A stretch of 64,000 nucleotides of DNA, taken from the NCBI RefSeq assembly GCF_003443615.1, contig NZ_CP031967.1, positions 1,612,001 to 1,676,000 on the forward strand. Reading direction: 5' to 3'. A program made the position numbers and the translations under genes. Positions 4,980 through 23,315 of this stretch are shown piece by piece; position 1 is the stretch's first letter; each line of letters starts with the position of its first letter. Source of the DNA: Alteromonas sp. BL110 (GTDB lineage Bacteria > Pseudomonadota > Gammaproteobacteria > Enterobacterales > Alteromonadaceae). A model generated the notes under the pieces. It did not search any database. It was not told where the DNA came from and saw only the letters and a list, made by a program, of their open reading frames with translations.

Positions 4980-5262
4980 ATGTAGACCTAAATAAATTCG
5001 TAGTAACGTGGTTAAGGAAAGTCACTTGCAAGCGCTATTAAATACATACACTTACGATAGCGAGCCAGCTTAGCTACAAACTAAATTGTTGCTTATACTC
5101 TAACTATCGATTAACAATAGAAAAAACTCTGCCAGTAATGTAGATTATACGAAAGTCTAAATACAACCAATTAGTTATACTCTTTAGGTGTGGTTTAGCA
5201 ATATTTTAGAGCAGCAGGTGAAATGCTGTGTGTTGTCTAAAAGAAATAGGGAGGTTCATCGC

Positions 5263-6882: not shown

Positions 6883-6883
6883 T

Positions 6884-8200
6884 GTGCTTAAGTCAGATTT
6901 AAAAGTTCCATCAAGTAATAGCCTAAGTACATTTATCCCATTTTTGAGAACAAAAGATAAACATTACAAATTTTGCTGGGATACTGTTCTTGGATATTTT
7001 GTTCATTCTGCCTATAACAGAGCATTGTTAAACATTGAACTTGACGGCTTTAAAGCACTTTGTGAAAAACGATTTGCTGAAATACTTGATGAGCCAAACT
7101 TTTGGAAAGAAATAGAAGCGATGTACTTCGAGAACGAAGAGCTTTTTAAGATTTCACCAGAATTATTGATGTTTAAAGCGACAAAAGATGAAATTGACCC
7201 TAACAGCAAAAAGCTTGGCGATACGCTTGCTAGTCTGCTAAACGATTTCTCTGTGGATTCTTCGCCTGAGACAAACTTAAATATTCTTGCAAAAGAAATT
7301 AAAGCTCAATTTGATGCATTCTACGTTTCAACCAAAGTTAAACAACCGGTTAAGAAGAACCAAACTCCATACCTACCGTTTTTAACAAAGTGCTTCCAAC
7401 AGGATTTGGAGTTTCTTAATTCGCGCCCCAGTTATTTAGTTGCGCAGTTCTCTGACTTCATAAAGCTTTACAGCTTTCTATACATTTCCCAGTTGGCGCT
7501 AAACATTAAAGATTGGAAAAATGGGGCTCCATCCCATAAACCGTGTTTCTTCATTGTTGACAACGAAAAAGCGAGTAGAGAACGGACTCACGTTCAGAAC
7601 TATGGCTATGGGCAATTAGTAGAGTATTTGAACTACCTTTTCCCTTATTTAGTTATAAATGAAACCTTACAAGAAAAAGGAGAGACTAAACCCTTGTGGC
7701 AGCTCTTTGAGGCAATAAAAGGTGACACAGCAGCCCTGTCTAATTTGAATCAATTTACGGAAGATTTTAGCGAAGCTCGTTCAAAGTTTTACAGAAATCC
7801 CATATCTGTAGAAGAACAAACACTTACTGAAGATGCTTTTCAGCAGCTACTCAACTTGTCCTACTGGCAATTTGATAAGAAGCGAGGCACTTTGGAGGAA
7901 TATAATCAAACAGCAGTTAAAGGTGTTTTAAAAACCATTTGCGCCCCTTTCATTCAAAAACGTGGACAAGCCGGTCAAGTACTTACGTTCAATCAAGACT
8001 ATATTGTTTTACTCACTAACTTAGCAATCGGAGAGAATGAAAAGTTGCGTTTGCATGAGTTAATAAAAGCCTTTGAAAGTCGTGGAATATATTTTGACAA
8101 ACAGAGCCAACAAAATTTAGTCAATTTTTATGAACGCATGGGAATAGTTGAAAGAATGAGCGATAGCGGAGATGCAGTATATGTCAAAAAAACAGTTTGA
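6884..8200 (+). CDS. dptG: DNA phosphorothioation-dependent restriction protein DptG
   Basis: The second restriction gene encodes about 438 residues with no motif I can assign. The first part is rich in aromatic and charged residues, and the last 80 residues look like a winged-helix fold (Asn-Leu-Ala-Ile-Gly-Glu followed by His-Glu-Leu-Ile-Lys-Ala-Phe-Glu-Ser-Arg-Gly). GTG at 6884 is chosen because GAGG at 6874-6877 is well placed; GTG at 6872, inside the end of dptF, is an alternative. The gene overlaps dptH by about 20 bases, so the three are translated together. The call relies mainly on order and length between dptF and dptH. Confidence 0.87.
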   Translation: MLKSDLKVPSSNSLSTFIPFLRTKDKHYKFCWDTVLGYFVHSAYNRALLNIELDGFKALCEKRFAEILDEPNFWKEIEAMYFENEELFKISPELLMFKATKDEIDPNSKKLGDTLASLLNDFSVDSSPETNLNILAKEIKAQFDAFYVSTKVKQPVKKNQTPYLPFLTKCFQQDLEFLNSRPSYLVAQFSDFIKLYSFLYISQLALNIKDWKNGAPSHKPCFFIVDNEKASRERTHVQNYGYGQLVEYLNYLFPYLVINETLQEKGETKPLWQLFEAIKGDTAALSNLNQFTEDFSEARSKFYRNPISVEEQTLTEDAFQQLLNLSYWQFDKKRGTLEEYNQTAVKGVLKTICAPFIQKRGQAGQVLTFNQDYIVLLTNLAIGENEKLRLHELIKAFESRGIYFDKQSQQNLVNFYERMGIVERMSDSGDAVYVKKTV

Positions 8201-11200
8201 AGATTTCCTTGTCTCTCATTTTAACAATTGGGCCAAGCAGTCTCTGATTCCCGGGCATCGCTATCAATTTGCAACCCCTGACAATGTTAGGGGTCAGAAA
8301 CTTCACTCTGCATTTTTAAAACAGCAATCGAGATATGTTGAAGTAAAAGGTACCAAACTTCCTTGTATTGAGTATGAGAAAGCTTCACTAATTCCCGTTT
8401 TTCATAGTGATGAGAGCGGATTTTCAGAAAATTTCATATCACATTTACGTGACGAAATAGCAGCCCAGCCAGAAGTACTAGATGGCTGCGCCCTACTCAT
8501 TATTCACAACTCCTCTTTAGATACAATAATCAATTCAGCTGAAGACGTTGCACAACAGGGGCATGTCTGGAACCCTGAAAATATAAAGCATATGCTTTAC
8601 CAAGAGCTTGACCAGAATGATGAGAAGCTGAAAGTATCTGAATGCTTACTGGATTATCAGTTTGATCAAATTCTCGATGATAAAGCGACTATGTTTGGCT
8701 TTGAAGAGCTTTATTACGCGGTGTCTGATGGCGACCTAAGATTTCCGGAGCTGGGGCTATTAAACGACGAAGCTATTTTGTCGTGGAACAACGAAGAACA
8801 AATACATTTTCGCATACAAGAGAATAAAAAACTAAGTGATGAATTAAACTTCATTACAGAGCATTTTCCTAATGAACTTCCGGAAAAGCTTGCTTCTCTA
8901 GACTTCAGTGAAACGTTTGTAAAAGAGCATTTTGAAACAGAAAACCCCGACCAGTGGCGTGAAAGTCTTGAGCTTGAGCAGTGCTATCAGGAGCAGCAAA
9001 AAAATCGTACAAACCTTCTGGAATTGGAAAAAGAGTCAACTTTATTTGGCGAACTACTAAAAAAAGGTAAGTCCGATAAAGGTGCTGGGAAAAGAGAACG
9101 ACACCTAATATTGCTTCTTGAAGAAGAACAAAACGAGTTCAACCTTGAATTTACCTTTATTAATGGGCGCATTTCAACGTCTAGCTGCACAATACAGCAC
9201 AATAAAGAACAACCCCCAATATCTATAGATATTAACAATAGTGGTGGGATTAGAAGCAGAATTGTATTAACTAGCAATTTCGACGGAGAGGCTCGGTTCT
9301 TTTCTCTTCAAGTCAAAACGGATAAGCCTCAAGAATCACATAAATTTCGAGTATTAGTCCTTCGAAAAGGTGACTTTGATGTAGCTCACTTTGAACATAT
9401 ATACTTGGTAGACTCGGCTAAGAAATGGATAACACTACAAACTGACGATCAAGTTTTGCAAGTCAGTGATAAACAACCGACCTTCGTTATTACCGAAAAT
9501 TACCAAACAATTCCTGCTGCCGATTACGGCATTGTTGACTTTAAACAGCTTGCCTCAGAAAAAGATGAAATCTTCTTCTGCGTACAAGGTCAGTACAGTG
9601 AACTGTTATTCAATGTAGAAGGTGAAGTATCGACTGAATCGTTAACCCTTCCATTACTGTTAGATCAGGGGCGGTTTAACTACTTATTTGAAAAAGGCTA
9701 CAACGGCCAATTTAACAGGAATAAATCAAAAGTACTTTTAGATGGTAAAGAAATTGCGCCCAAGCAGCGAAGATTAGAACTACTTCAAAATGAAGCGCAA
9801 CTTCTAGATGAGCGAGTACTTTCAAAACATTACGCTTCAGATGACGTTTGCTTAGACAGCATTAGTAGCGATTACCCTGATCTTTTCGCTGAATATAACA
9901 AGCTTTTCGATTACCTAGTAACTAACAGAACATTAATCAGTATTGCCGGTTGGGAGCCGGAGTTCAGAGAAATCGTATCAAGAATCGTTGATATATATAT
10001 CGATAAAATTTCTAAGATTCCATTCGATGCCCCGCTTAGCCAAGCGCATAAGAAGTTAGTACTAATAGGCTTTGCTGAGTTTGAAGAACGAGGAATAGTT
10101 CAGGAATATATTACGCCATTCCACCCAGCTGTATTAGCCTATAACTTGAACGTAGCAAACGCTTTGCTTGGCGATAAACTCGACTCAGGCAGCTTCAAAG
10201 AACTGCCTTCGATCACAATAAACCGATTGAGTGCGCAAGGTTTACTACCATTTATCTATGACCCTACTCATGATTTTTCCTATAACCATGCGGAAAAAGA
10301 AAATGTATTTTGGTCTAGGTTAATACCACAGCAAGATAGCAGCTATGACTATGTTCGGTCTTTAGTTTCAGACAAAGTCGAGAAGTTCACGGCAGCGTTC
10401 AAGCACCTATTTACTGCCGGTAGTAAAACAACACTAATCATAAACTCTGTAAACAACTTACATAATGAAGAGTTATTTTTAGGCGTTGTAGATTATGTAA
10501 AGCGTAAAAAAGGTAAAATTACGCGCATTCATGTAAATCTATATAACGAAGAAGACCATTACACGTGGTTCGATAGGTTTGCAGACACTGCAAGTTACGA
10601 TGAAATAAAAAGCCTATGTGAATTAAACAGAGGACCAATCAAAGAACAGGCAGATACGATTGTTGACCTGCTACGCACACGACTAACCTACAGTAAGTTC
10701 CAGATCACGGACAATCACGACTCCCAAGCGTATGCACATATCTGTTTCTTCAAAAATAATGAGCGTGTTAGAGCAGAAGATATAAACGTCCTCAAGCAAA
10801 AAAGCGGAGTTGTATGTCATGGTTTAATGCCTGGCGAAGCTGCATCTAATAAGCACGGTAGCTTTTATACAGCTTTTGGTTTAGAGGGAGTAAATACGGA
10901 AAGCTCTGCACCTCTGAAGCTTATAGAAAAGTACTCTGCACTTATTAAACCAGCTCGCTCAAATCATGTGCAATATACATCGACAAGATCTCAGGCATTA
11001 GTGGTAACCGACAACTTTAAAAACCTGCTTGATGTTTCTTACAAAAATTCAATTTGGACCACCATCATCGATCCCAAAGTAACGTTAGATTTCTTTGAGG
11101 GTGAAAAGGATATGGTGCTTATTCATTATTCAGATAACTACACTAACTCGGTTAACTATGATGCCATCACGGTAACTGAGCAGACTGACCTGTATCACAA

Positions 11201-13232
11201 GGTACTGGATAACGATAACGGCGGCCTTATTGGAGAGTTTAATGCATTCAATGGTGAATGGTTACTTAACTTGGTTACCGCTAATAGTAATGAGCGAAAG
11301 GAAAAAAGAGGCATTTTAGGCGCATACAAATTTGTTAACTGCCTACTACACAAGTCAGACATTACGTGGGTACCACTCTCTATCGCTGAAATCATAAGGG
11401 TAGCGGGAAATCTTGGCTTAAAAGCAAAAGAAAGTGACTTTTCGAGATTCTCTCAAGGCTTCAAGTCTGGCGCTATATCAGACGACGTTTTATTTGTAGG
11501 CTTCAAAGACCATAAGCTTATCCTTCTACCTGTTGAAGTTAAAACGGGCAAAAGACAGACCCACAGCAAAGGCGTAACGCAAGCTAAAGAGCTTAAACGC
11601 TACTTTGAAGAGCTATTAGGTAAAACGAGTTTAGCCAGTCATTTGTATCGCGGTTTGTTTATTCGTCAGATTATGATGCAAATCGATAAGTACAAGCTTT
11701 ATGACGTATACCCAAATGACTATTTCAAACCAGTTACAGACAACTTTGCTTGGTGGTTACAGGGTGATTATAGCCTAGCGCAATTAACCAACTATCCAGA
11801 GGCAATGTTGTTCGTAAATGTTGAAGATAAGGACTTTACTAAGGCCAGCTTTACCCAGGTTCAAGATGTCTTAAAAATTGAGATTCCAGCCGGCGATTTG
11901 ACCGATTCACAGGGCAACATAAGTCACATACTTCGAACACCACTGCAAAAACTTTACGCCGAATTAAAACCAGTAAACCTATATCACATAGAAGATAAAT
12001 ATATTCTGGATGGCGAAACGCAAATAGAACCAATAGCGTCTTATGCTGGAAGTGAAGAGACAGTACCCGCAGTTAGTACTAAAACTGACATTGAAATAGA
12101 AAACAATACGATAGGTGAACCATCTGCGCCACCTGCTGAAACAGCCAATGCAAAGCATTCAGAAGTAAAACGCAAAAAAATGCCTGAAAGCGAGTTACTG
12201 GAACTTTATCAACGCATTATCGATTGTTACTACAGCTACAATATCCCAGTTTCAAAACCTACAAGCGAAGCGCCTTACGTTGAAGGACCCGCTTCAATAC
12301 TTTTCAGAGTTGAACTTAACCCTGGCACGGACCCAAGAAAGCTATTTGAAAAGTCGCAGGCATTAAAGCTCGACCTAAGGCTTGAACAAGAGCAAGAAGT
12401 TGGGTTCGCGATAGATAAGGGTTGCGTGACAATCGATGTGCCCAAAAGCGACAGCCAGCGATACTATGTTGACCAAGAGGACATCTGGCCGTCATGGCAA
12501 CGCCCAATCAACGCATTAGAAGTGCCATTGGGGGAGGACCGGTTTGGAAACGTTGTGAAAATAAACTTTTCATCTTCTAACTGCCCTCACCTTCTTATCG
12601 GTGGCACAACCGGTAGCGGTAAATCAGAAGCTCTCAACACCATTTTGTATGGCATGTGTGAACATTACAGCTCATCAGAATTGCGACTAATGCTGATTGA
12701 CCCTAAAGGTACTGAGCTTAATGATTTTGAGCGATACCCTCACTTACTAGGACAAATTGGCTGGGACGACGCTGACGCACTCCAACTATTGAGTGAAGCG
12801 GTAGAAGAGATGCAAAGTAGATATGCCACGTTCAAAAAAACTGGCGTTAGATCTCTCCCGGATTACAACGCGAAAGTGAGCGATGAAGAGCGAATTCCCT
12901 GGTGGATTTTAGTGCTAGATGAATACGCGGATCTTACTTCAGATAGAGAAATGAAGAAGGACATCGAAGCCGAGCTTAAGCGTCTAGCCCAGAAAGCTCG
13001 TGCAGCTGGTATCCATCTAATTATTGCCACTCAAAAACCCAGTGGGGATGTCATTAGCACAAACTTACGTTCTAACCTTCCAGCACAATTAGCACTTCGA
13101 GTGAAAAATGGTACAGAGAGCCGTGTAATTCTTGATGACCAAGGTGCGGAGGTGCTTAATGGCAAAGGAGATGCTTATCTCAAGTCCGAAGGTAAGTTAG
13201 TAAGAATACAATGTGCTCAAGTTACAACATGA
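8181..13232 (+). CDS. dptH: DNA phosphorothioation-dependent restriction protein DptH (HerA/FtsK-like ATPase)
   Basis: DptH is the large motor subunit of the restriction system, here 1683 residues. The C-terminal part is an FtsK/HerA-type ATPase: Walker A at residues 1474-1482 (Gly-Gly-Thr-Thr-Gly-Ser-Gly-Lys-Ser), Asp-Pro-Lys-Gly-Thr-Glu-Leu, a Walker B Leu-Val-Leu-Asp-Glu-Tyr near 1580, and Ala-Thr-Gln-Lys-Pro-Ser-Gly. In the middle, Ser-Asp-Asp (1100-1102), Glu1119-Val-Lys1121 and Gln1134 are spaced like a PD-(D/E)XK nuclease core. The stretch from about 1300 to 1350 is acidic and Pro/Thr-rich, probably a linker. ATG 8181 has CGGAG 9 bases upstream; ATG 8172 is also possible. It overlaps dptG and is followed at once by the DGQHR gene. 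Confidence 0.92.
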   Translation: MSKKQFEDFLVSHFNNWAKQSLIPGHRYQFATPDNVRGQKLHSAFLKQQSRYVEVKGTKLPCIEYEKASLIPVFHSDESGFSENFISHLRDEIAAQPEVLDGCALLIIHNSSLDTIINSAEDVAQQGHVWNPENIKHMLYQELDQNDEKLKVSECLLDYQFDQILDDKATMFGFEELYYAVSDGDLRFPELGLLNDEAILSWNNEEQIHFRIQENKKLSDELNFITEHFPNELPEKLASLDFSETFVKEHFETENPDQWRESLELEQCYQEQQKNRTNLLELEKESTLFGELLKKGKSDKGAGKRERHLILLLEEEQNEFNLEFTFINGRISTSSCTIQHNKEQPPISIDINNSGGIRSRIVLTSNFDGEARFFSLQVKTDKPQESHKFRVLVLRKGDFDVAHFEHIYLVDSAKKWITLQTDDQVLQVSDKQPTFVITENYQTIPAADYGIVDFKQLASEKDEIFFCVQGQYSELLFNVEGEVSTESLTLPLLLDQGRFNYLFEKGYNGQFNRNKSKVLLDGKEIAPKQRRLELLQNEAQLLDERVLSKHYASDDVCLDSISSDYPDLFAEYNKLFDYLVTNRTLISIAGWEPEFREIVSRIVDIYIDKISKIPFDAPLSQAHKKLVLIGFAEFEERGIVQEYITPFHPAVLAYNLNVANALLGDKLDSGSFKELPSITINRLSAQGLLPFIYDPTHDFSYNHAEKENVFWSRLIPQQDSSYDYVRSLVSDKVEKFTAAFKHLFTAGSKTTLIINSVNNLHNEELFLGVVDYVKRKKGKITRIHVNLYNEEDHYTWFDRFADTASYDEIKSLCELNRGPIKEQADTIVDLLRTRLTYSKFQITDNHDSQAYAHICFFKNNERVRAEDINVLKQKSGVVCHGLMPGEAASNKHGSFYTAFGLEGVNTESSAPLKLIEKYSALIKPARSNHVQYTSTRSQALVVTDNFKNLLDVSYKNSIWTTIIDPKVTLDFFEGEKDMVLIHYSDNYTNSVNYDAITVTEQTDLYHKVLDNDNGGLIGEFNAFNGEWLLNLVTANSNERKEKRGILGAYKFVNCLLHKSDITWVPLSIAEIIRVAGNLGLKAKESDFSRFSQGFKSGAISDDVLFVGFKDHKLILLPVEVKTGKRQTHSKGVTQAKELKRYFEELLGKTSLASHLYRGLFIRQIMMQIDKYKLYDVYPNDYFKPVTDNFAWWLQGDYSLAQLTNYPEAMLFVNVEDKDFTKASFTQVQDVLKIEIPAGDLTDSQGNISHILRTPLQKLYAELKPVNLYHIEDKYILDGETQIEPIASYAGSEETVPAVSTKTDIEIENNTIGEPSAPPAETANAKHSEVKRKKMPESELLELYQRIIDCYYSYNIPVSKPTSEAPYVEGPASILFRVELNPGTDPRKLFEKSQALKLDLRLEQEQEVGFAIDKGCVTIDVPKSDSQRYYVDQEDIWPSWQRPINALEVPLGEDRFGNVVKINFSSSNCPHLLIGGTTGSGKSEALNTILYGMCEHYSSSELRLMLIDPKGTELNDFERYPHLLGQIGWDDADALQLLSEAVEEMQSRYATFKKTGVRSLPDYNAKVSDEERIPWWILVLDEYADLTSDREMKKDIEAELKRLAQKARAAGIHLIIATQKPSGDVISTNLRSNLPAQLALRVKNGTESRVILDDQGAEVLNGKGDAYLKSEGKLVRIQCAQVTT

Positions 13233-13242
13233 TAAAAGGGAT

Positions 13243-14943
13243 ATGATCAAAGTGGAAACAAAAAAATATGAATACGACGCTGTACGCGTTATCCAAACAG
13301 AAAATAGTAAGCCGTTAATTTTGTTTGGGGCTAAAGCAACTGATATTGAGCAATGGGCTGGAATTCCACAGAAAAAAACATTAAACCCTGGCTCTGCTGA
13401 GACGACCGGTTTTCAGAGGACAGAAAATCAAAATCGATTACGCCAACTCAGCAGCTTTTACCAAAATAAAGAAAATGTAGTTCAAAACAATTTAATATGC
13501 AGTCTCAGAAAGCTTAAGGGGTGCAAGGTTGAATTTTTAGAAAGCCAGCATTCAAAGATGGTGGGGAAATTAATAATAGAGTTCCCAGACTTTTACACTG
13601 CATCCTGGCTTGCATTGTTTGGCCTGCTGAGAGAGTCGCTGGAGTCGCGAATCGGTGCAGTAGCTGTAGATACTTCATCACCCAAATATCTTGAACTAAA
13701 ATCAAGAGTTGGTCTATTTTCAGAAGATAATGAAGCAAACTCCGAAGACATAGAAGATGATACTGAGGGAGATAGTGAAGGTGGTATAGAAGCAGCTATT
13801 TACGAAGAAAGCCACCTAAATGACTTTTTAGAAGATATAGCCATCAGGCATGAATTACTTAAAGAGTTAAATAATGAAGAAATTGACAAAGATAAATTTC
13901 TTGGCTTCGACCGTGTTTCGTTAATTTCATTTCTTTTACCTATAACGTTAGTTGATGGACAACATCGTTTGAAAGGTGCAGTGCTCGCGGCTGAAGAAAT
14001 TGCAAATAATCAAAGACAAGAAGGTTTGGACCTTATAAAGAAAGGAGTTTCCCCAGAAGAAGTTTTTTCTGGTTTGAAAAATAAGTATTCTAGAGAGTTG
14101 CCTATTTCACTATTGATGGAAGACGAACCAAAAGAGCAAGTTTTTCAATTTGTTGTTATCAATCAAAAAGCAACCCCAATAGGTAGGTCACTATTAGGCA
14201 CTATCATCTCTACGACACTAACCTCCGAGGAAATGGAATCGGTAAACGAGCGATTACTTGCTTCCGGGATTGCGCTTGATGATGCTAGAGCTATAACGTG
14301 GGCTGTTAGGAACGCCGCAAGCCCCTTCTATGGACTTGTTGAAAGGGGCACGCAAAGCGAGCAGAAAGATTTACTTCAATGGAATGTAATGGGTTCACTA
14401 ATCAGTATATTTAGGGAGCTAAAAGGAGGGAAATTGTTTCATGCTAAAAATGATTACGCAAAGCGTTGGAAGGAAAAGTTTCTTACCAAGAGTGAAATAG
14501 TCAGGTCCGACGAATTCATGGATGCTTATCAAGAATGGAGCGCTCTCGATGGACCATGGCAACAGGTATTTATTGCGTTCTGGAATAAAGTAAAGCAAGA
14601 GCTCTCACAAGACGAAAATCCAAGTCGCCATAACTACTGGGGTAATACGAGGAAATCTAATATTTTTAACAAGATATCCTTAACAATTTTAGCTTCAGAC
14701 TTTTTCAAATTTTTAGTTACAACAAAACAAGTTATTAACTCGGTTGATGACATTAATACATTGGTAAATGACTGGCTTGAAGATGTAAATAGAGCTTACT
14801 TTGACCAAGACTGGGAATTGGCCGGGATCAAAAAAGACAGTCCTGGTATTCGAGCTAGATGGGCCGAAAACTGGGCGGAGTACAGAGAGAGTCCAGATCA
14901 GCTTCCTCAAGCAAAAAGCTACAGAAATGCTAAAAAATCATGA
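13243..14943 (+). CDS. DGQHR-domain (DndB-like) protein in the restriction operon
   Basis: This 566-residue protein carries Val-Asp-Gly-Gln-His-Arg-Leu-Lys-Gly-Ala at residues 237-246. That is the DGQHR motif of the ParB-like DndB family. It is preceded by a motif typical of the family start (Phe-Gln-Arg-Thr-Glu-Asn-Gln-Asn-Arg-Leu). An acidic insert (about residues 160-185) separates the N-terminal part from the DGQHR core. It is not the dndB of the modification operon: that gene lies on the other strand at 19957-21048 and differs in length and sequence. It follows dptH within a few bases and its stop overlaps the start of the HNH gene (ATGA). ATG 13243 is preferred (AAGG upstream) over a start inside dptH. 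The role is unknown; binding DNA or sulfur sites and guiding the HNH enzyme is an inference. Confidence 0.83.
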   Translation: MIKVETKKYEYDAVRVIQTENSKPLILFGAKATDIEQWAGIPQKKTLNPGSAETTGFQRTENQNRLRQLSSFYQNKENVVQNNLICSLRKLKGCKVEFLESQHSKMVGKLIIEFPDFYTASWLALFGLLRESLESRIGAVAVDTSSPKYLELKSRVGLFSEDNEANSEDIEDDTEGDSEGGIEAAIYEESHLNDFLEDIAIRHELLKELNNEEIDKDKFLGFDRVSLISFLLPITLVDGQHRLKGAVLAAEEIANNQRQEGLDLIKKGVSPEEVFSGLKNKYSRELPISLLMEDEPKEQVFQFVVINQKATPIGRSLLGTIISTTLTSEEMESVNERLLASGIALDDARAITWAVRNAASPFYGLVERGTQSEQKDLLQWNVMGSLISIFRELKGGKLFHAKNDYAKRWKEKFLTKSEIVRSDEFMDAYQEWSALDGPWQQVFIAFWNKVKQELSQDENPSRHNYWGNTRKSNIFNKISLTILASDFFKFLVTTKQVINSVDDINTLVNDWLEDVNRAYFDQDWELAGIKKDSPGIRARWAENWAEYRESPDQLPQAKSYRNAKKS

Positions 14944-15884
14944 CATTACATATAGAAAGCCAGCTAGCAGGAAGTATTTTACAACCAAATAATAACTGGG
15001 ATATTTCTGTCCAGAAACAACTATCGGCTTTTAAAAATCCTGATTACTTAATTGGACCTCGAGTCGACCTACTTCAAGGGGACATTTCAAGAGAGTGGTT
15101 TAAATGGATCGTTGACCAGTTTGTAGATAAGAGATTTTTTAACGAAAAAACAAACTTTTTTGAAATTTACACTGACGTTAGAGACAGTATAGAACTTTTG
15201 ATAGGCAATCAGAAGGACGAAGATGACAAACAAAAAATTTCTGAACTAATAAGTATCAGTGTTGAGCAACGTATCAACTTTTTAAAGCAAGATGATAGAA
15301 ACCGAAAAAACATAACAACAACAATAAAAGAAGATTTATTGACAATCTATGGTCAAGAACCGAGGTGCTGGCTTACAGGATTAAAATTTTCCCAAGAGGC
15401 TGTTTTTAATTTTACAGCTAAGAAAGTAGATAAACAGCCAATACAACTTCCCACATTTGTAGATAGATACAGACCAATAGGAACAAATGAAAGAGATCTA
15501 TGTATCGAAGTCGACCATCTATTTCCTTTTTCTTACGGAGGCCCAGATGATTTGAATAACTACCGTTTAATTTGTGGTTGGGCTAACAGAGTAAAAAGCA
15601 ACCACATTACTGGATACAGCACGGGCACAAAAGTAAGCGGGGCTAGTAAACTTTTCCCTACTAGTTTTTATTATTGGGTGATAAGAACCTTAGGGTTAAA
15701 AAGAAAATGTGAAGTAGCTGGGTGTAATAACAACATTACGAACTCGGAGTTAACTGTATGTTCACAACTGGGAAGTTCCAAAGCAATCACACCTGTGAGC
15801 ATGAAGGTTATTTGTAAAGACCATGATAATAGAGAAAACAGATATATTCGACGAGATTCAGTGAAAGAACGTTTTTTATTATAG
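14940..15884 (+). CDS. HNH endonuclease, last gene of the dpt operon
   Basis: The 314-residue protein has an HNH nuclease core. Cys-Trp-Leu-Thr-Gly lies at 143-147, Glu-Val-Asp-His at 190-193 with the metal-activating Asp-His, then a Gly-Gly-Pro-Asp-Asp-Leu-Asn-Asn-Tyr motif (200-208) and Trp-Ala-Asn-Arg-Val-Lys-Ser-Asn (214-221). A further set of Cys residues near 258-262 and 271-295 may bind zinc. The first 140 residues show no known domain. The start ATG overlaps the stop of the DGQHR gene by 4 bases, so translation is coupled. It ends 68 bases from the convergent dndE. It is probably a DNA nicking or cutting effector; whether it needs DptFGH is not known. Confidence 0.85.
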   Translation: MTLHIESQLAGSILQPNNNWDISVQKQLSAFKNPDYLIGPRVDLLQGDISREWFKWIVDQFVDKRFFNEKTNFFEIYTDVRDSIELLIGNQKDEDDKQKISELISISVEQRINFLKQDDRNRKNITTTIKEDLLTIYGQEPRCWLTGLKFSQEAVFNFTAKKVDKQPIQLPTFVDRYRPIGTNERDLCIEVDHLFPFSYGGPDDLNNYRLICGWANRVKSNHITGYSTGTKVSGASKLFPTSFYYWVIRTLGLKRKCEVAGCNNNITNSELTVCSQLGSSKAITPVSMKVICKDHDNRENRYIRRDSVKERFLL

Positions 15885-15952: not shown

Positions 15953-16300
15953 TCACGAAAAGTTACTGTTAGAAAGGAAGTAACTTATACCTCTACTTAA
16001 ATGTAGCTTGACAAAGTCAACTAAAGTTATCGTTGAGAGTTCTTTTTGCTTCTCGTAAGCTTGCCGAAGAACAGCAAGATAAACATCCGCATACTCCCCA
16101 GCGAATACCTTCCAACTCATCTCAACATTACTGTCAGATGGGATATCTTCAACAGGTGGAACAGTCTCTTCTGCAAGCGACATACACAATGCCCATCGGC
16201 AAAGCACATTCCAGTTTTCGATACCTGTTTTTGATTTGAGGCGGATAAGCTGTTGTTTTTGCTTCTCAGATAGCCTGATTGTATCGATAGTATTAGCCAT
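15953..16300 (-). CDS. dndE: DNA sulfur modification protein DndE
   Basis: DndE is a small protein (115 residues here, the usual size) of the phosphorothioation complex with DndC and DndD; the known family binds nicked DNA. The sequence begins Met-Ala-Asn-Thr-Ile-Asp-Thr-Ile-Arg-Leu-Ser and has the conserved Gly-Ile-Glu-Asn-Trp-Asn-Val-Leu-Cys-Arg-Trp-Ala-Leu, matching DndE. ATG 16300 is chosen; a longer frame up to 16363 would sit inside dndD. The start overlaps the end of dndD by 8 bases, so the two are coupled. It is the last gene of dndBCDE and converges with the HNH gene. Confidence 0.9.
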   Translation of the reverse strand: MANTIDTIRLSEKQKQQLIRLKSKTGIENWNVLCRWALCMSLAEETVPPVEDIPSDSNVEMSWKVFAGEYADVYLAVLRQAYEKQKELSTITLVDFVKLHLSRGISYFLSNSNFS

Positions 16301-18263
16301 TAAAATAGCCCTCTGAAATAGTGGACGATTTAAACTCTTCGTCGAAAGCAATTTGATATTCACGATTTACGAACGGCTTCAAGTCGTCGTAATACTTACC
16401 GGTGATTTCTTCGTCGGTAGATAGAAGTAGTACTTGGCTAGCCGCTTTTGGGAAGTAATTTTTAATAAGTTTAGTTCGATGTTTGCCATCTAAGCGACCT
16501 AATGGTGTATCGATAACCGTTGGAAGTTCTTTGCCTGAAGCTTCAGCCAACGCTGACAGAATAGCAATTGCAAGCAGCTGTCTTTCACCTGCAGAAAGGC
16601 GATTTGGTGCTAGCTCTTCTCCCTCATGGCTAAGCAACGTTAGGCTAAAGGTTTCTGTATCCACAGAAACAGCGTTAATCAAACTATCTTTACGAGTTAG
16701 CCCGATAAACTTCTCAGCTATTTTTTGTTCAATTAGCGCTATGTTTTCTTTGATCATAGATTTCGCGAAATTATGCATAGTCGCTTTTAGCTTATTCACA
16801 TGCTCACATACTTGAAGCGTACGTTTTTGTTCAAACGTATCTTTATTCTGCTGAGTTAAAAGACTTGTATATCTTGTATTTAACACGTCACGTTTTGCGA
16901 TTGCTTGTGCTAACAGCGCTTTGTTATGTTCTAGTAGCGTAGTCTTACTCTCAAATTCTGCTTCGAGTGCTGCAAGTTCACTTAGAATAGCCTTTACATC
17001 GTTATAGTCTGGTATTGCTTCTTCTTGCTTGATATATAAAGCTTCTTTCTCTTTTAGCTCTTCACGAACCTTTATAAGCTTTTTGCGCTCAGCTTGCTCG
17101 CTCGCAATACGCTCATCAAGCCCGGTAAAAATACTTAGTGGTAAATCGATGTAACAGTCGCTAGCAGCAAAACCTCTGCGCTCGTTTCGATTATCTTCAA
17201 CAAGTTGATTAATAGCGTTTAGAGTACTCGTGTCGACCTTACCTTGCGTTAAAGTATTCAATATCTGTCCTTCATAGTCAGAAATTGAAGCGTCGAGTTC
17301 TTTAGCTTGTTTTGCTTTCGCTTCTATCGCTATCTGTTGTTTAGTTTCCTCTAACAGCTTTGGTATAAGTCCAAGCGGACATGCGCCAGCATCAATCTTT
17401 ACCCTTTGCTGTAAATTATCTTTTAATTGGCGATCTATCGCGCCAAGTTCAAATTTGATTGAATCGCGTTCTTCAATCAAGTGAGCCCCTGACATACGAG
17501 CGGTCTGTCGTGCTTTTTTGATTGCTACATTAAGACCACTTATTTCTTCTTCTAAACTTGCAGCTTCATTTCTTAAAGCGCGTAACAAAATATCGTGCTC
17601 GCCTATTTCATCTTCACAGTCTGAAACTCTTTTTATTAGGTTTTCATCAATATTGCTTTTTTTACGTTCGTTCTCGATAACGGTTAAATCTGAACGTAGT
17701 TGAGTGAGTAAATCTAAGCCTAATAAATTCTCTAGTCCGGTTTGGATAAGCTCAGAGCTTCTTTCAGGGTTCGCTAAGTTTTCAATTTTCTCACCGTCGA
17801 AGAAGAATAAGTCGGATAGTGACTGCGGTATAAACTCATTTACGAAATCATCCCAGTTTGAACTTACGAATTCATCTACCTCGCCGTTACAAAAAACTTT
17901 TAGTTTATCTTTTGTGTTCTCGGGGCTGCTGGCAACCGACCAAGCGCGTTTAACGATATAGGTGTATTCATCAGTTTCAGCTTTATGCGTAAACTCAAGC
18001 GTTAATGAAACATTTTCAGATTGGTCAGAAAATCTATTTTTGGTACTTGCTAGAAAAGAGCCAAATGCTTGGGTTCCACGATTAGAGCATTTAGCGTGTT
18101 TTCCATATAAAACCAACTGTAGAGCATCTAAGAAGGTTGTTTTTCCACCGCCATTTAAGCCGCCGAATAAAACAATAGGCTTTTCTTCTGTTACCGTTAA
18201 ATCGACAGTGTGGGTACCTTTGTAGATTCCAAAGTTTTCTATGGTTAATGATTTAAGTTGCAT
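16293..18263 (-). CDS. dndD: DNA sulfur modification protein DndD (SMC-like ATPase)
   Basis: DndD is the ATPase of the sulfur-modification complex. The 656-residue protein has an N-terminal Walker A at 34-43 (Gly-Gly-Leu-Asn-Gly-Gly-Gly-Lys-Thr-Thr), a long coiled-coil middle, and C-terminal ABC signature (Leu-Ser-Ala-Gly-Glu-Arg-Gln) and Walker B (Val-Ile-Asp-Thr-Pro-Leu-Gly-Arg-Leu-Asp). This is the RecF/SMC-like layout and length of DndD. The start overlaps the dndC stop by one base (TAATG) and its end overlaps dndE. Confidence 0.95.
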   Translation of the reverse strand: MQLKSLTIENFGIYKGTHTVDLTVTEEKPIVLFGGLNGGGKTTFLDALQLVLYGKHAKCSNRGTQAFGSFLASTKNRFSDQSENVSLTLEFTHKAETDEYTYIVKRAWSVASSPENTKDKLKVFCNGEVDEFVSSNWDDFVNEFIPQSLSDLFFFDGEKIENLANPERSSELIQTGLENLLGLDLLTQLRSDLTVIENERKKSNIDENLIKRVSDCEDEIGEHDILLRALRNEAASLEEEISGLNVAIKKARQTARMSGAHLIEERDSIKFELGAIDRQLKDNLQQRVKIDAGACPLGLIPKLLEETKQQIAIEAKAKQAKELDASISDYEGQILNTLTQGKVDTSTLNAINQLVEDNRNERRGFAASDCYIDLPLSIFTGLDERIASEQAERKKLIKVREELKEKEALYIKQEEAIPDYNDVKAILSELAALEAEFESKTTLLEHNKALLAQAIAKRDVLNTRYTSLLTQQNKDTFEQKRTLQVCEHVNKLKATMHNFAKSMIKENIALIEQKIAEKFIGLTRKDSLINAVSVDTETFSLTLLSHEGEELAPNRLSAGERQLLAIAILSALAEASGKELPTVIDTPLGRLDGKHRTKLIKNYFPKAASQVLLLSTDEEITGKYYDDLKPFVNREYQIAFDEEFKSSTISEGYFNG

Positions 18264-19960
18264 TAGACGTTTTCCACACTCTCAATTAATAAAGAGCTAT
18301 AACCATCTTCTTTCAATGACTTCGTTATAATCGCGATACTCTCTTCAAGTGACTCTTGTTGTTGTTGCAGCTCTTTTACAGCATCACTATGCGCGCTTTC
18401 TGCTTGGGAATTAGTTATCTTAATTTGGATATGTTCTAGCTCTATCTGTCTTCGGTGCCTTTCTCGTTCTAACGCAAATTTTTTCGCCTCGAATAAGTTA
18501 TCAAACGCACCTTTATCTAGTACATCGTTAAGTTCATCTTTCAACTTGGCACGACGCAGCTGATTTCTGTATTTGTTAGAAACGTTTAGCACAGCTCGCA
18601 TTTGCTGATAGAGCAAGCCATCTTCATCGCCCTGCTCTGCACAATGTGCTTTTAGCTTGTCTAACACGCTCTTGTTTATTATCGGGTGATGCGCCCTGCG
18701 TTTACCCGGATATGCTTTTCCAATAACTTGTTCGTAAATCAGGGGTAATGAGTCTTCCGCTTCATGCTTATCGTTAAGCCATACTTCTCTTATACCCTCT
18801 AATTCTTCAATCGAAATTAGCTCTAGATCATTTACTTCTGCAGGAGCCATTTGCTGAACAGCTACTTGTGCCTCTAGTACTTTTCTAAGCATATGCTCTC
18901 TGAACGACTGAACATATGGTCCTGGCACTAGGTCTGCGCCGTGTTTAGTTACATGTACGGTTAGAGTTCCGTTCATGCGCCTAAAATCGCGGTTGCCTTT
19001 ATCTCGTCTTAGCTTTTCTAATTTCTTGTCATGACTAGCATCATTAACTTCAATTTCGTTTCTTAGCATTACGAGCGGCATCATCCACTCTTTCTCGTCG
19101 TCATTGGCGATCATGGCATTCATCGATTTGTCTTCAGACACCATGGTACAAACGTAGCAGCCAAATCGACTGTCGCCACAACTTTGCGTTGATTTATCAA
19201 CTACTAAAGGACACTCTCCGCCTTCTGTTGCGCCTTGATACATACCCATTAAGTCATGATTTGGGAAATCCCACGGATTTTTTATGCTGTTTAAATAAAT
19301 CCATACATCATCATTGGTCCAGTGACCTATCGGGGTATAAACCCACACTCTATCCAACGAACCGTTCTCTGTTAAACCTAATGCTTTCCGAGTATTCGTT
19401 TCTGAGCTTTCAAACCTATCCATGCTGGCCGCCCTGGCAGAACTTTCTGCCTTGCGAGTTCCTAACACCAAAATAGCCTCGCCATTCTTGTCGGCAAGGT
19501 TCTGAATAAAGCTATTAGAAGGCGATATTTTAAGACGGTCAGTACACCAGCGAAATTTAGCTCGCGGTGCGGGGTAGCCCTTACCTATTAGGTTGTACCA
19601 GAAACGGTTTTTAACTTCGGGAACTAGCTTATGAGGAACGATCGGCAAATTCTGTTCTTCAGCTGCCGCTTTCATTTTTTCTAGTGATTTATTTACCCAT
19701 GAAGACACAACTGGATTTTCAACTAAAGTGTCGGTACTGATTACATGTACTTTCTTATCGGCCTTTCCTTCCTTCACTAATTCTTGAAGGGCATACCATA
19801 CCAATTGTAGTGTAGCTGTAGAGTCTTTACCGCCGCTATAACCGATAACCCAAGGGATACTGTCACTAAGGTAGAGTTTTTTTACGTGTTCGATTGACTG
19901 AGAAACAGAATTTTTTAAACCAACTTCATTAAAAGCTGATTGAATACTTACTTGGCTCAT
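18263..19960 (-). CDS. dndC: DNA sulfurtransferase DndC (PAPS-reductase-like)
   Basis: DndC passes sulfur from DndA to the DNA backbone. The 565-residue protein has the PP-loop ATP-binding motif Ser-Gly-Gly-Lys-Asp-Ser-Thr at 42-48, as in PAPS reductases. It also has cysteines suited to an iron-sulfur cluster: Trp-Cys-Thr-Asp-Arg-Leu-Lys and the Ser-Cys-Gly-Asp-Ser-Arg-Phe-Gly-Cys-Tyr-Val-Cys cluster. The last 100 residues are charged and probably coiled coil. Start and stop overlap dndB and dndD by a few bases, so the operon is fully coupled. Confidence 0.96.
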   Translation of the reverse strand: MSQVSIQSAFNEVGLKNSVSQSIEHVKKLYLSDSIPWVIGYSGGKDSTATLQLVWYALQELVKEGKADKKVHVISTDTLVENPVVSSWVNKSLEKMKAAAEEQNLPIVPHKLVPEVKNRFWYNLIGKGYPAPRAKFRWCTDRLKISPSNSFIQNLADKNGEAILVLGTRKAESSARAASMDRFESSETNTRKALGLTENGSLDRVWVYTPIGHWTNDDVWIYLNSIKNPWDFPNHDLMGMYQGATEGGECPLVVDKSTQSCGDSRFGCYVCTMVSEDKSMNAMIANDDEKEWMMPLVMLRNEIEVNDASHDKKLEKLRRDKGNRDFRRMNGTLTVHVTKHGADLVPGPYVQSFREHMLRKVLEAQVAVQQMAPAEVNDLELISIEELEGIREVWLNDKHEAEDSLPLIYEQVIGKAYPGKRRAHHPIINKSVLDKLKAHCAEQGDEDGLLYQQMRAVLNVSNKYRNQLRRAKLKDELNDVLDKGAFDNLFEAKKFALERERHRRQIELEHIQIKITNSQAESAHSDAVKELQQQQESLEESIAIITKSLKEDGYSSLLIESVENV

Positions 19961-21048
19961 TGTTGAGTAACCTCTTTTTGCAACGCCTGTTCCGCTAATA
20001 GTTCGCTTTCAGACAGCTCTATACTCATCAATTGTTTGATTTTGATACACGTTAACTTGGCTGCTTTTGTGTTGTTGTACATGCTTCCGTTTACAACACA
20101 CCTCCCCGCCCAGTCAGAGTTACTTCTAGACCAATCGACTTTTTTCAGTCGTTTTAGTGTTCGTTTCCACTTTTTGTCATGCTTGAGTAACCAACAGCCA
20201 AGTAGCCCTAACGCATGGAAAGTCACGGAGTACGCATTGATTGATTCTTCCCTGATTTCACCGCCAGAGGCCTCATCATTACAGACGAGAATCCAACTCG
20301 GCATGTTTACTAAAACCTCATGCCAGTATTCTGAAGCAATGGGCGTTAACTCTTGATAGTTAGCCTCGGTAATATTGCCCAAAAGCGCCTTTGTAGCGGT
20401 GTTTACTGCACTGTGACTTACCAGCTTTTTAGAGCGAGGCCCAAGGTTGCTTTTCTCCATATGAACAAGCTTTCGTAACTGCTCGCTTTCGAAAATTATC
20501 GTTTTTGATAGCTTTGCGTCAGGACTATCACCGTAAGTGATGCTTAATGATGAATCCGTCTTAACTGGATAGAGATTTAAATCTTTAAAGATTTTCTGAC
20601 GTTCCTCTAAAGACTTGCTTGCGAAGAAAACAATAGAAATCGTTTCATCACCTAGTGTTGGGTCTTGTGTTAGAGCTTCTTGAATAGCTGCGTTCCGATG
20701 CTGACCGTCTGTGATATACAATTCGGCATCTTCATCAATAACAAGTGTGCCAATTTTTTGCTCGTGCTTGGCTTCGCCAATAGCTAAAAACTCCGACTCA
20801 CCGTCAATACATGCCGTAAGCGCTGAGAATACGTAATCATCTCTGTTGGCCAATATATAATTAGCAATATCAGGAATGCGCTCTTCATTGATGATCCGCT
20901 GCGCTCGTTTATCTACAGGCAGTTGCCCTTCATCAAAACTGAATATCTTTTTCAGTCTTTTTAAGGGGCACATTACGATAAAATATTCGTCATTTGCCTG
21001 CTGTCCTTTGATTGCCGGAAAGGACATCCCTGATGCTATCTGTGACAT
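19957..21048 (-). CDS. dndB: DNA sulfur modification protein DndB (DGQHR domain)
   Basis: The 363-residue protein carries Ile-Thr-Asp-Gly-Gln-His-Arg at 112-118, the signature of the DndB/ParB-like family. In other bacteria DndB is dispensable for modification and has been reported to act as a transcriptional repressor of its own operon (for example in Salmonella). Here it is first in dndBCDE and its start lies 126 bases from dndA on the opposite strand. The intergenic inverted repeat at 21072-21103 would suit an operator. Its stop overlaps the dndC start (ATGA). Confidence 0.93.
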   Translation of the reverse strand: MSQIASGMSFPAIKGQQANDEYFIVMCPLKRLKKIFSFDEGQLPVDKRAQRIINEERIPDIANYILANRDDYVFSALTACIDGESEFLAIGEAKHEQKIGTLVIDEDAELYITDGQHRNAAIQEALTQDPTLGDETISIVFFASKSLEERQKIFKDLNLYPVKTDSSLSITYGDSPDAKLSKTIIFESEQLRKLVHMEKSNLGPRSKKLVSHSAVNTATKALLGNITEANYQELTPIASEYWHEVLVNMPSWILVCNDEASGGEIREESINAYSVTFHALGLLGCWLLKHDKKWKRTLKRLKKVDWSRSNSDWAGRCVVNGSMYNNTKAAKLTCIKIKQLMSIELSESELLAEQALQKEVTQQ

Positions 21049-21103: not shown

Positions 21104-21173
21104 AAAATGGTGGTATAGTACAACACAAATTTCAAGATGTCGCCTGTACCTTGGTAAGTATTAATAGAAAGTG

Positions 21174-22298
21174 ATGACTACATATTTAGATTTCAACGCA
21201 ACTACCCCCGTACTGCCAGAAGTAGCAGATTTAGTTTACAAACTAATGGTAGAGGAATACGGAAATGCCGGAAGCAGAACTCATTCATTCGGTGCCACCG
21301 CAAAACAGGCTGTTGAAAAAGCAAGGAAGCAGGTAGCCGATGTAGTTAACGCTGATAAGTCAGAGGTCATTTTTACAAGCGGCGCCACAGAAAGTAACAA
21401 TATTGCGATTCTGGGCTTAAAAGGGTACGCCGAAAAGAATAACAAGAAGCACATCATCACTACCGCCATTGAACACAAAGCGGTACTTGAACCTATTGAA
21501 AACCTTGTGAGCCATGAGTTCGAAGTAACTTACATCAAACCCGATCAGTCTGGAGTAATTGATGTAGAAAGTATCGGTAAAGCACTGAGAGAAGATACCC
21601 TTCTAGTTTCTGTTATGCATGTTAATAACGAAACCGGAAGTATTCAGCCAATTGGAGCCATTTGTAATTTACTCAATGAGCACAGTGCCTATTTACACGT
21701 AGATGCCGCTCAAAGCTTTGGTAAGTTCAGTGACGAACTGGATAACAAAAGAATTGATTTTATCAGTGCTAGTGGGCACAAACTTTACGCGCCCAAGGGA
21801 GTGGGAGCATTAGTAACTCGAAAGCGTGGTTTCTTGAAAGCGCCGCTTAAGCCGCTCTATTTTGGTGGTGGTCAAGAGAAAGGGCTTAGACCAGGTACAC
21901 TTCCTGTCCAGCTAATAGCAGGCTTTGGTTTTGCCTGTGAGTTGGCTCAAAAGAATAAGGTTGATTGGCAGAACCACAGCACAAAAATAAAAGAAAAATT
22001 CTTGGCTTTGATTAGTAGGCTTGGAGGAAAGGTTATCGGCGAAAATACTTCCCCTTTCGTTACTAATTTTTATATACCCGGCGTGAATTCAGAAGCAGCG
22101 ATGGTTATGCTGAAAGATGTGATAGCAGTTTCGAATGGTTCTGCTTGCACATCTTCAAGCTACCAACCATCACATGTTTTAACTGCTATGGGGCTTACTG
22201 AGGACGAAATCGCAGGGTCTATTAGAGTGTCTTGGTCGCATATGACTGATGCCATTCCAATAGACTTAATTGAAGAGCGTTTTAAAAACCTAATTTAG
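21174..22298 (+). CDS. dndA: Cysteine desulfurase DndA
   Basis: DndA takes sulfur from cysteine and loads it for DndC. The 374-residue protein is an IscS/NifS-type PLP enzyme with Ala-Thr-Glu-Ser-Asn-Asn, His-Val-Asp-Ala-Ala-Gln-Ser, the PLP lysine 203 in Ser-Gly-His-Lys-Leu-Tyr-Ala, and the catalytic Cys325 in Ser-Asn-Gly-Ser-Ala-Cys-Thr-Ser-Ser-Ser. It is divergent from dndBCDE. ATG 21174 is chosen over the GTG just before it. It could be a general desulfurase, but the position beside dndB makes the Dnd role very likely. Confidence 0.93.
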   Translation: MTTYLDFNATTPVLPEVADLVYKLMVEEYGNAGSRTHSFGATAKQAVEKARKQVADVVNADKSEVIFTSGATESNNIAILGLKGYAEKNNKKHIITTAIEHKAVLEPIENLVSHEFEVTYIKPDQSGVIDVESIGKALREDTLLVSVMHVNNETGSIQPIGAICNLLNEHSAYLHVDAAQSFGKFSDELDNKRIDFISASGHKLYAPKGVGALVTRKRGFLKAPLKPLYFGGGQEKGLRPGTLPVQLIAGFGFACELAQKNKVDWQNHSTKIKEKFLALISRLGGKVIGENTSPFVTNFYIPGVNSEAAMVMLKDVIAVSNGSACTSSSYQPSHVLTAMGLTEDEIAGSIRVSWSHMTDAIPIDLIEERFKNLI

Positions 22299-22808: not shown

Positions 22809-23315
22809 TTGAAAAGTACGTTAGGTATCGTTGATGCCGAAATACCAACGAAAGAAAAAGTCAAAACCACTTCAAAAAGAAAGCAAGTATTTATTAGTTA
22901 CTCGCATCGAGATAAGACTTATTTTGATCGACTTTCCACCCATTTAAAACCTTTGGAAAAGAAGGGGCTAATAGAACCGTGGAGTGACACACGTATATCT
23001 GCTGGCGAATTATGGAAAAAGCAGATTGAAAGCGCCCTTAATAAAACTCAAGTTGCAGTTTTGCTAGTGAGTGCAGATTTTCTGGCGTCTGATTTTATTG
23101 TAGATAATGAACTTCCTCCTCTTTTAGAAAAAGCCAGTTCCGATGGCGCTACGATAATTCCAGTAATTCTGAAACCATGCCGTTTTATCAGAGAAGAAAC
23201 GATAGCTAAGTTTCAGGCCATCAACACTCCAGAAGAACCACTGATAGCTGCATCTGAGCATGAGAGTGAGCTTATTTATGATGCTATAGCAGAGCGTATA
23301 GAATCGCTCCTTTAG
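22809..23315 (+). CDS. TIR-domain protein (C-terminal part of an XRE-TIR fusion)
   Basis: The frame encodes a TIR domain of the TIR_2 type: Gln-Val-Phe-Ile-Ser-Tyr-Ser-His-Arg-Asp-Lys, then Trp-Ser-Asp-Thr-Arg-Ile-Ser-Ala-Gly-Glu-Leu-Trp, and Ile-Glu-Ser-Ala-Leu followed by Ala-Val-Leu-Leu-Val-Ser. Bacterial TIR domains often cleave NAD in defence systems; the Glu in the Trp-x-x-x-Ile-Glu region fits the catalytic position, but activity is inferred. The codons upstream, in this frame, encode the HTH of an XRE domain, so the whole gene (22642-23315) would be a 224-residue XRE-TIR protein. The TTG used here as the start is only the first start codon in the intact part. No partner gene is seen, and it sits at the edge of the Dnd island. 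Confidence 0.75.
   Translation: MKSTLGIVDAEIPTKEKVKTTSKRKQVFISYSHRDKTYFDRLSTHLKPLEKKGLIEPWSDTRISAGELWKKQIESALNKTQVAVLLVSADFLASDFIVDNELPPLLEKASSDGATIIPVILKPCRFIREETIAKFQAINTPEEPLIAASEHESELIYDAIAERIESLL

Follow-up and report, generated by a model that had tools for sequence, protein, structure and literature searches.

The closest described counterparts of the gene pair considered here are DndI and SspE, single-chain enzymes in which a ParB-like nucleoside triphosphatase (NTPase) domain bearing a DGQQR motif is joined to an HNH domain; phosphorothioate (PT) in the DNA stimulates the NTPase, and the HNH domain nicks DNA (PMC11662687, PMC9646914, PMC13251355; here and below, statements credited to PMC records refer to excerpts of those papers). 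The DGQQR motif is needed for nucleoside triphosphate (NTP) hydrolysis in both enzymes (PMC11662687, PMC13251355), and mutation has shown that PT is sensed by Y25 of DndI and by Y30 and Q31 of SspE (PMC11662687, PMC9646914); in the solved sequences these residues belong to a YQR triplet, of which they form the Y and Q. The gene of DndI shares a transcript with dndFGH and lies adjacent to dndBCDE, and DndI protects together with dndBCDE alone (PMC11662687). We analysed a stretch of 64,000 nucleotides from Alteromonas sp. BL110 (contig NZ_CP031967.1, positions 1,612,001 to 1,676,000; the window), in which a DGQHR protein (P0001) and an HNH nuclease (P0002) are encoded by adjacent genes between dptFGH and the dnd genes. 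The pair is a real two-gene companion of Dnd marking. The initial annotation recognised no described system with this exact pair, and no description was recognised in the open-access full-text literature either, a scope outside which most subscription papers and bioRxiv preprints not in PMC fall. Comparison of its sequences suggests that it is most likely a PT-coupled restriction effector like DndI and SspE, although it lies outside the families to which those enzymes belong.

A scan with the DGQHR family over 84,980 species genomes yielded 51 loci; it undercounts, because it was confined to genomes matching two short peptide patterns. Forty of the loci (L002-L041) are close relatives, at 37-74% identity, and 11 (L042-L052) are distant relatives that are counted apart. 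In every one of the 40 close relatives a gene of the P0002 family follows the DGQHR gene on the same strand, although the query that retrieved them did not include the HNH gene. Chance adjacency is ruled out by this pairing, and the possibility that the two genes are unlinked in most genomes, on which the initial annotation would have been abandoned, did not materialise in the part of that check that was run. Record titles and tree labels place the close relatives in the Pseudomonadota, Actinomycetota, Cyanobacteriota, Acidobacteriota and Myxococcota. The two proteins have also diverged together: the DGQHR and HNH distances correlate with r of 0.91 (40 rows) and, after regressing out DndC, 0.86 (the 30 rows with DndC), whilst the correlation of DGQHR with DndC distances is 0.02 once HNH is accounted for (30 rows). 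The 40 aligned rows are the window and 39 loci; interrupted frames for DGQHR, dptG, dptH and dndA excluded L007 from the alignments, Mantel tests and trees. In that locus, from Vibrio metoecus, each of these genes is split into two open reading frames (ORFs), through decay or sequencing error, and the HNH gene and dndB-E are whole. No DNA similarity was found in E. coli genomes or in plasmids, and P0001 was not found in phage records; viral contigs gave two loci, with HNH adjoining DGQHR in both, and a protein search with the c11 HNH gave four matches.

The pair is tied to sulfur marking. The genome-wide search covered 38 of the 40 close-pair loci (L008 and L031 lie outside the genome set), and DndC scored above cut-off in all 38. 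Among 369 genomes of the window's class DndC did so in eight including the window's own, hence in 7/368 others (Fisher 1e-46, for genomes that are not independent and with pair genomes that span more than that class). A canonical dndB, dndC or dndE gene is present in the fetched flank of 35 of the 40 loci. The exceptions are L014, L015, L021, L032 and L038: the sequence of L014 and L015 runs into a contig edge, and in L021 and L038 the distance from the pair to DndC is about 13-20 kb, assuming that contig numbers correspond. The suggestion that the two genes form an effector-like module, distinct from dndB and linked to sulfur marking, is supported.

The same cannot be said of a link to DptFGH. 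DptH was detected in 3 of the 38 pair genomes, against DndC in all of them, so the pair belongs to PT marking and not to DptFGH, and its assignment as a part of DptFGH was rejected. A strong PbeA match occurs in 20/38, and 15/38 have neither DptH nor strong PbeA; the PbeA threshold here is a gap chosen after seeing the best score of each genome (at least 158 bits versus at most 46 bits), the curated cut-off of 600 being passed by only 2/38 and weak matches occurring in all 14 control genomes. In the window's order DptH is found in 19/394 genomes. We read 13-20 kb around dptH in the 18 others, and no window-type DGQHR or HNH protein was labelled after dptH in any of these stretches, where other cargo stands instead. 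The initial annotation had the pair added to the dptFGH operon. For the window that description stands locally; as a generality it fails, and the pair is not a routine part of dptFGH loci. We give little credence to the idea that the pair is a DptFGH accessory, lending a reader and a nickase to the DptFGH translocase, even though it begins 10 nt past dptH in the window and has DptFGH upstream in L003, L007 and L019 as well.

The cargo after dptH in those 18 genomes is diverse. A convergent dndD homologue lies downstream of dptH in 16 of them (not in L102, which is cut by a contig end, nor in L110). Besides dndB, a DGQHR-motif protein is present in 10/18 (on the opposite strand in L099), a DndI relative in one (L108, matching 9JFL at E 3e-69), and the remainder comprises other nucleases, ATPases or unknowns. 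A DGQHR protein of 349-415 aa, immediately preceded by a protein of 157-227 aa, stands between dptH and dndE in seven of the 18 (L096, L097, L100, L104, L107, L109 and L111); by a simple Kyte-Doolittle count the small protein has three to four hydrophobic segments in six and one in L096, and the arrangement resembles a second DGQHR module whose partner is a membrane protein. In L098 and L102 a DGQHR protein of 687-688 aa is followed by a protein of 413-415 aa with an R-x6-H stretch; the L098 partner had no Pfam match, and these partners may be HEPN-like, which is a guess.

Comparison of Vibrio loci indicates that the pair moves as one cassette, swapped in place. Between Vibrio sp. MEBiC08052 (L005) and Vibrio ruber (L041) the DndA-E proteins are 92-100% identical, and those of the pair only 40% (DGQHR) and 26% (HNH). 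The DNA similarity of L005 to L041 ends at about 9885 and resumes at 12665, save for one 100-base stretch at 75%; the pair in L005 occupies 9992-12639, so the borders of similarity hug the pair. L002 and L019 provide a second case, with dndC 86% identical and the pair 41% and 28%. L019, L039 and L041 form a group of their own in the DGQHR tree (100/99), separate from the window's clade, while their dndC genes all fall within that clade in the DndC tree, where L041 branches with L005 and L019 with L002. The HNH tree concurs with the DGQHR tree with weaker support (84/74); there are 19 rows for DGQHR and HNH and 18 for DndC. In both L005 and L041, a series of small genes upstream of the pair is flanked on either side by recurring stretches of about 110-190 bases; they are perhaps integron-like repeats, which is a guess.

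Two further explanations were considered. One makes the pair part of the marking chemistry, the HNH protein nicking DNA to aid sulfur insertion and the DGQHR protein regulating. DndB is known to regulate the PT level (PMC4507180), and dndC is present in all searchable close-pair genomes; yet near-identical dndA-E tolerate pairs as different as those of L005 and L041, seven of the eight DndC genomes in the class sample do without the pair, and related pairs stand at Dpd loci, whose chemistry is unrelated. We regard it as improbable. The other holds that a DndB-like regulator and a stray HNH nuclease, unrelated to each other, have come to rest in a defence hotspot. The dptH-dndE place does gather diverse cargo, as described above, but constant pairing, joint swaps and correlated divergence leave this explanation scarcely credible.

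The two proteins find at best weak or sub-cut-off matches in PADLOC, NCBIfam and Pfam. P0001 scores 42 bits in two stretches against the generic DGQHR domain (TIGR03187, cut-off 58.85), 17.2 bits against Pfam DndB (cut-off 29.1) and 32.5 bits against DpdB (NF041060, cut-off 300), which is also the nearest named model in PADLOC (37 bits). It has no match to TIGR03233 (DndB), to which the window's own DndB scores 490 bits, and the probability of a profile-profile match between the P0001 and DndB families is 46%; these values rule out P0001 as a DndB duplicate and confirm the initial annotation, which had set it apart from the dndB at 19957-21048. No sequence relative of the P0001 family was found in the PDB. 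P0002 falls just under gathering for HNH profiles (19.4/21.4 bits for PF01844 and 19.3/22 bits for another), and its distant relative at L042 passes PF01844 gathering with 27.6 bits; 19 PDB sequences matched the P0002 family, at E 0.0035 or weaker, mostly Cas9 HNH.

All motifs of the DGQHR domain are present and conserved in P0001 (Q58 and R59, D238-R242, F303 and N307), with 170-216 residues between QR and DGQHR across the family. The residue before QR is aromatic in 39 of 40 aligned proteins (37 F, 2 W), Q is kept in 39/40 and R in 40/40, at the position of the PT-sensing residues of DndI and SspE; in the DndB proteins encoded at these loci the triplet reads AQR or SQR. P0002 carries the H-N-(H/N) active-site pattern of the HNH superfamily as H193, N207 and N216. 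The DGQHR protein is the larger and better conserved partner. A zinc-site-like CxxC...CxxC arrangement is found in 33/40 HNH proteins; the other seven (the window, L002-L006 and L010) show a joint substitution of the second Cys in the two halves.

Set beside the known enzymes, the pair resembles DndI of Salmonella (DUF262-DUF1524; PMC11662687, PDB 9JFL) in combining a putative ParB-like switch, with an aromatic residue beside QR, and an HNH nuclease, and DndI works with IscS-DndBCDE without DndFGH. It differs in being two proteins rather than one chain, with DGQHR rather than DGQQR and an HNH of another family than DUF1524. SspE (PDB 7DRS; PMC9646914, PMC13251355) offers a similar model, a PT-stimulated NTPase and nickase with an HNN active site and a YQR pocket; unlike the pair, it is a single DUF262/DUF1524 chain and works with SspABCD marking. 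Coupling to PT marking genes is common to all three, given the DndC and flank counts above. Membership of the DndI and SspE families was nevertheless rejected: P0001 has no match to PF03235 (DUF262/GmrSD_N) and P0002 none to PF07510 (DUF1524/GmrSD_C) at E <= 1, there are two genes, and hhalign to the L108 DndI relative gives 7.9%. No ORF of more than 200 aa with the DndI motif DGQQR occurs in any of the 40 pair loci. The GmrSD type IV enzymes (PMC4619093) can be two genes, for a ParB-like S and an HNH D subunit, and share the QR, DGQ(Q/H)R and FxxxN motifs with the DGQHR domain, an equation drawn for GmrS, with its DGQQR, in that paper; they differ in belonging to other Pfam families and in targeting modified phage DNA (glucosylated hydroxymethylcytosine, glc-HMC). 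ParB-HNH (GmrSD) enzymes have been reported near BREX (PMC12839542). ParB-fold proteins fused to HNH domains are known in bacteria, and a DndB-like protein binds ATP and GTP (PMC12704722), both in line with the split into two proteins proposed here.

On balance the pair probably constitutes a two-subunit PT-coupled restriction effector, DndI/SspE-like in its working and built from other domain families. The DGQHR protein would act as a ParB/Srx-like NTP-hydrolysing switch in contact with DNA, its aromatic-Q-R pocket recognising the PT mark that DndA-E introduce. The HNH protein, translationally overlapping and presumably in complex with it, would supply the nuclease activity, probably as a nickase; an encounter of the DGQHR protein with PT would hold it off host DNA or make it let go, and unmarked phage DNA would be left open to its attack. 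Such a split into reader and nickase is suggested by the match of the aromatic-Q-R triplet to DndI and SspE and by the HNN residues kept in the HNH protein. Since the two genes stand side by side, travel together and occur almost only in sulfur-marking bacteria, the pair is probably an anti-virus weapon that tells self from foreign by the sulfur mark. The co-transcription of DndI with dndFGH, the DndI relative after dptH in L108 and the distant pairs at Dpd loci also count for a PT effector. An unlikely alternative is a suicide or toxin-like backup, in which a cell-damaging HNH protein is silenced by the DGQHR protein for as long as PT marking or the main restriction system is functional, and is freed once a phage disables that. 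A suicide-backup role has been put forward for standalone nucleases near dnd (PMC10853773), cells without PT are harmed by DndI and DndFGH (PMC11662687), and the presence of dndC in all 38 genomes would suit a dangerous enzyme equally well. However, the 15 genomes with neither DptH nor strong PbeA have no such system to back up, other effectors being possible, and the DGQHR protein is unlike a typical small antitoxin in its size and conservation.

Several points weigh against a PT-coupled effector. Compared with the L108 DndI relative, the P0001 and P0002 family profiles reach probabilities of 7.9 and 0.7, respectively, neither of them significant, so the likeness to DndI rests on domain type, position and motif, and the equation of the DGQHR-domain QR with that of DUF262 is taken from PMC4619093. 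The aromatic residue is not specific to PT: the Dpd-linked L042 protein has YQR, and the HNH-linked c8 DGQHR family, with a dnd homologue in the flank of 7/9 loci, lacks the aromatic. The aromatic-Q-R triplet thus fits PT reading without proving it. The pair is rare, only the window's own genome having it among the eight DndC genomes of the class sample. L032 has no dnd gene in its fetched flank, its DndC apparently lying on another contig. Finally, GmrSD_C domains occur in 26/38 pair genomes, and other effectors could therefore be what the marks serve.

The pair bears on a wider question. DndFGH was reported in 806/3416 taxa whose dnd locus has a linked endonuclease (PMC10853773), and dndFGH nearby in 340/568 dndBCD genomes (PMC11662687). 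Many Dnd loci thus lack DndFGH, and what the sulfur marks do there is a question that the pair may answer; with dndC in all 38 genomes and DptH in only three, it is a concrete candidate restriction partner.

Related pairs extend beyond Dnd. At L042 a distant DGQHR-HNH pair accompanies DpdA, two DpdB and a QueC match, the HNH-linked DGQHR protein standing beside separate, full-scoring DpdB proteins. L043 has the pair with DpdA- and DpdB-type proteins, clustered with those of L042, and DpdC by profile, and L117, a Bradyrhizobium plasmid, has it with annotated DpdA, two DpdB, QueE, QueD and QueC. DndC was found in neither of the two genomes with a distant Dpd-linked pair that were searched (L042 and L043). 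Profile comparison relates the Dpd-linked pairs to the window family at 99.9% (DGQHR) and 97.9% (HNH), the single-sequence scores of their HNH proteins being modest (24-48 bits). In L044-L052 the order is reversed, HNH-DGQHR, and the fetched flanks include a dnd homologue in 7/9 (all but L049 and L050); these match the window family at 99.6% (DGQHR) and 98.3% (HNH). Among 298 genomes of the L042 order, a search for the Dpd-type DGQHR protein gave matches in that of L042 itself and in G009, a carrier of the dnd-type pair, and in no other, so the Dpd link rests on three loci, and YQR is seen there in L042 alone, the DGQHR frames of L043 and L117 being short (413 and 371 aa) and without the QR part. 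If the window's pair reads PT, the occurrence of related pairs alongside Dpd marks would point to a coupling of nuclease and host mark that can be reused. It is possible, and we put it forward tentatively, that DGQHR-HNH pairs are general two-subunit, mark-licensed restriction effectors, pluggable into marks as unrelated as Dnd phosphorothioate and Dpd 7-deazaguanine. DGQHR/ParB-like proteins would then be interchangeable readers on swappable killers (HNH here, small membrane proteins in other dnd loci), with phage pressure swapping whole cassettes in place.

Other described families come less close. TIGR04172 (DNA phosphorothioation-associated DGQHR protein 1), named as a novel DPT satellite family in 2011, is a DGQHR protein always beside DPT genes and lies, by GenInfo identifier (GI) order, between dptH and dptE in Serratia odorifera (PMC3226654); P0001 reaches only 13.5 bits against its cut-off of 450, and the excerpts of that paper mention no HNH partner. 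DndB shares the DGQHR domain with P0001 and differs as a regulator of the dnd operon, as well as in the motif and model match given above. DpdB is the DGQHR protein of the Dpd marking system, from which P0001 is set apart by its score and the L042 protein by its separate DpdB neighbours. The wHTH(SBD)-SRA-HNH enzymes such as ScoMcrA also tie an HNH nuclease to PT or dnd loci, as single chains with an SBD reader (PMC10853773). The excerpts of that paper, the closest survey, list HNH among dnd-linked nucleases and name no DGQHR partner, although its figures or supplement may contain such genes.

The coordinates of the locus are given in Table 1. The genes dptF-dptG-dptH-DGQHR-HNH lie on the plus strand, convergent with dndE-D-C-B, and dndA lies beyond. 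The DGQHR ORF may start at 13213 (GTG) or 13243 (ATG); the ATG is the likelier start because it is preceded by AAAAGGG and lies 10 nt past the dptH stop. The few-base gap to dptH and the stop-start overlap with the HNH gene, both in the initial annotation, hold on this reading. We detected no terminator-like site on the plus strand in the interval from dptH to the pair, which does not in itself establish co-transcription. The dndE ORF start may be too early, as the ORF overlaps dndD.

Table 1. Genes and conserved motifs of the locus, in window coordinates
Feature	Position	Strand	Basis or remark
dptF	5188..6882	+	TIGR03238 match above cut-off
dptG	6872..8200	+	TIGR03236 match above cut-off
dptH, FtsK/HerA-like C-terminus	8172..13232	+	TIGR03237 match above cut-off
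DGQHR (ParB/Srx-like) protein P0001, 566 aa; predicted PT reader and NTP switch	13243..14943	+	
Aromatic-Q-R triplet F-Q-R, codons 57-59	13411..13419	+	Position of PT-sensing Y-Q in DndI (Y25) and SspE (Y30, Q31)
D-G-Q-H-R motif, codons 238-242	13954..13968	+	Invariant in 40/40
FxxxN motif of DGQHR domain (F303/N307), codons 303-307	14149..14163	+	F 38/40, N 40/40
HNH nuclease P0002, 314 aa; start overlaps DGQHR stop (ATGA)	14940..15884	+	
HNH core H193, N207, N216 (H-N-N)	15516..15587	+	H193 40/40, N207 39/40, N216 40/40
C-terminal Cys/His cluster C257, C262, C292, H295, zinc-site-like	15708..15824	+	40, 39, 40 and 39 of 40
dndE, convergent with pair	15953..16363	-	Position; matches to annotated or conserved dndE neighbours in relatives
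dndD	16293..18263	-	Position; conserved neighbours in relatives
dndC	18263..19960	-	TIGR03183, 671 bits at G000:C1:1630512-1631894
dndB, canonical DGQHR protein	19957..21048	-	TIGR03233, 490 bits
dndA, cysteine desulfurase	21171..22298	+	Position; conserved neighbours in relatives

Ahead of dptF lies an Mrr-type nuclease (4191-4979, minus strand), and an Mrr-type family is also found repeatedly among the fetched dnd loci (cluster c12, 8 loci). After dndA there is a TIR-domain ORF (22809-23315), possibly a fragment, and because TonB receptor, MFS and GH3 genes lie beyond it the defence island seems not to reach past about 24 kb. In Agrobacterium larrymoorei the pair and annotated dndA-E are carried on pTiAF3.44 (L116), a Ti plasmid typed as conjugative. 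At the dnd loci L016, L028 and L116 a DEAD/DEAH helicase beside a protein with an EGNTR stretch, which we take to be a ParB-like motif, is found repeatedly close to the pair; L009 has the EGNTR-stretch gene without the helicase.

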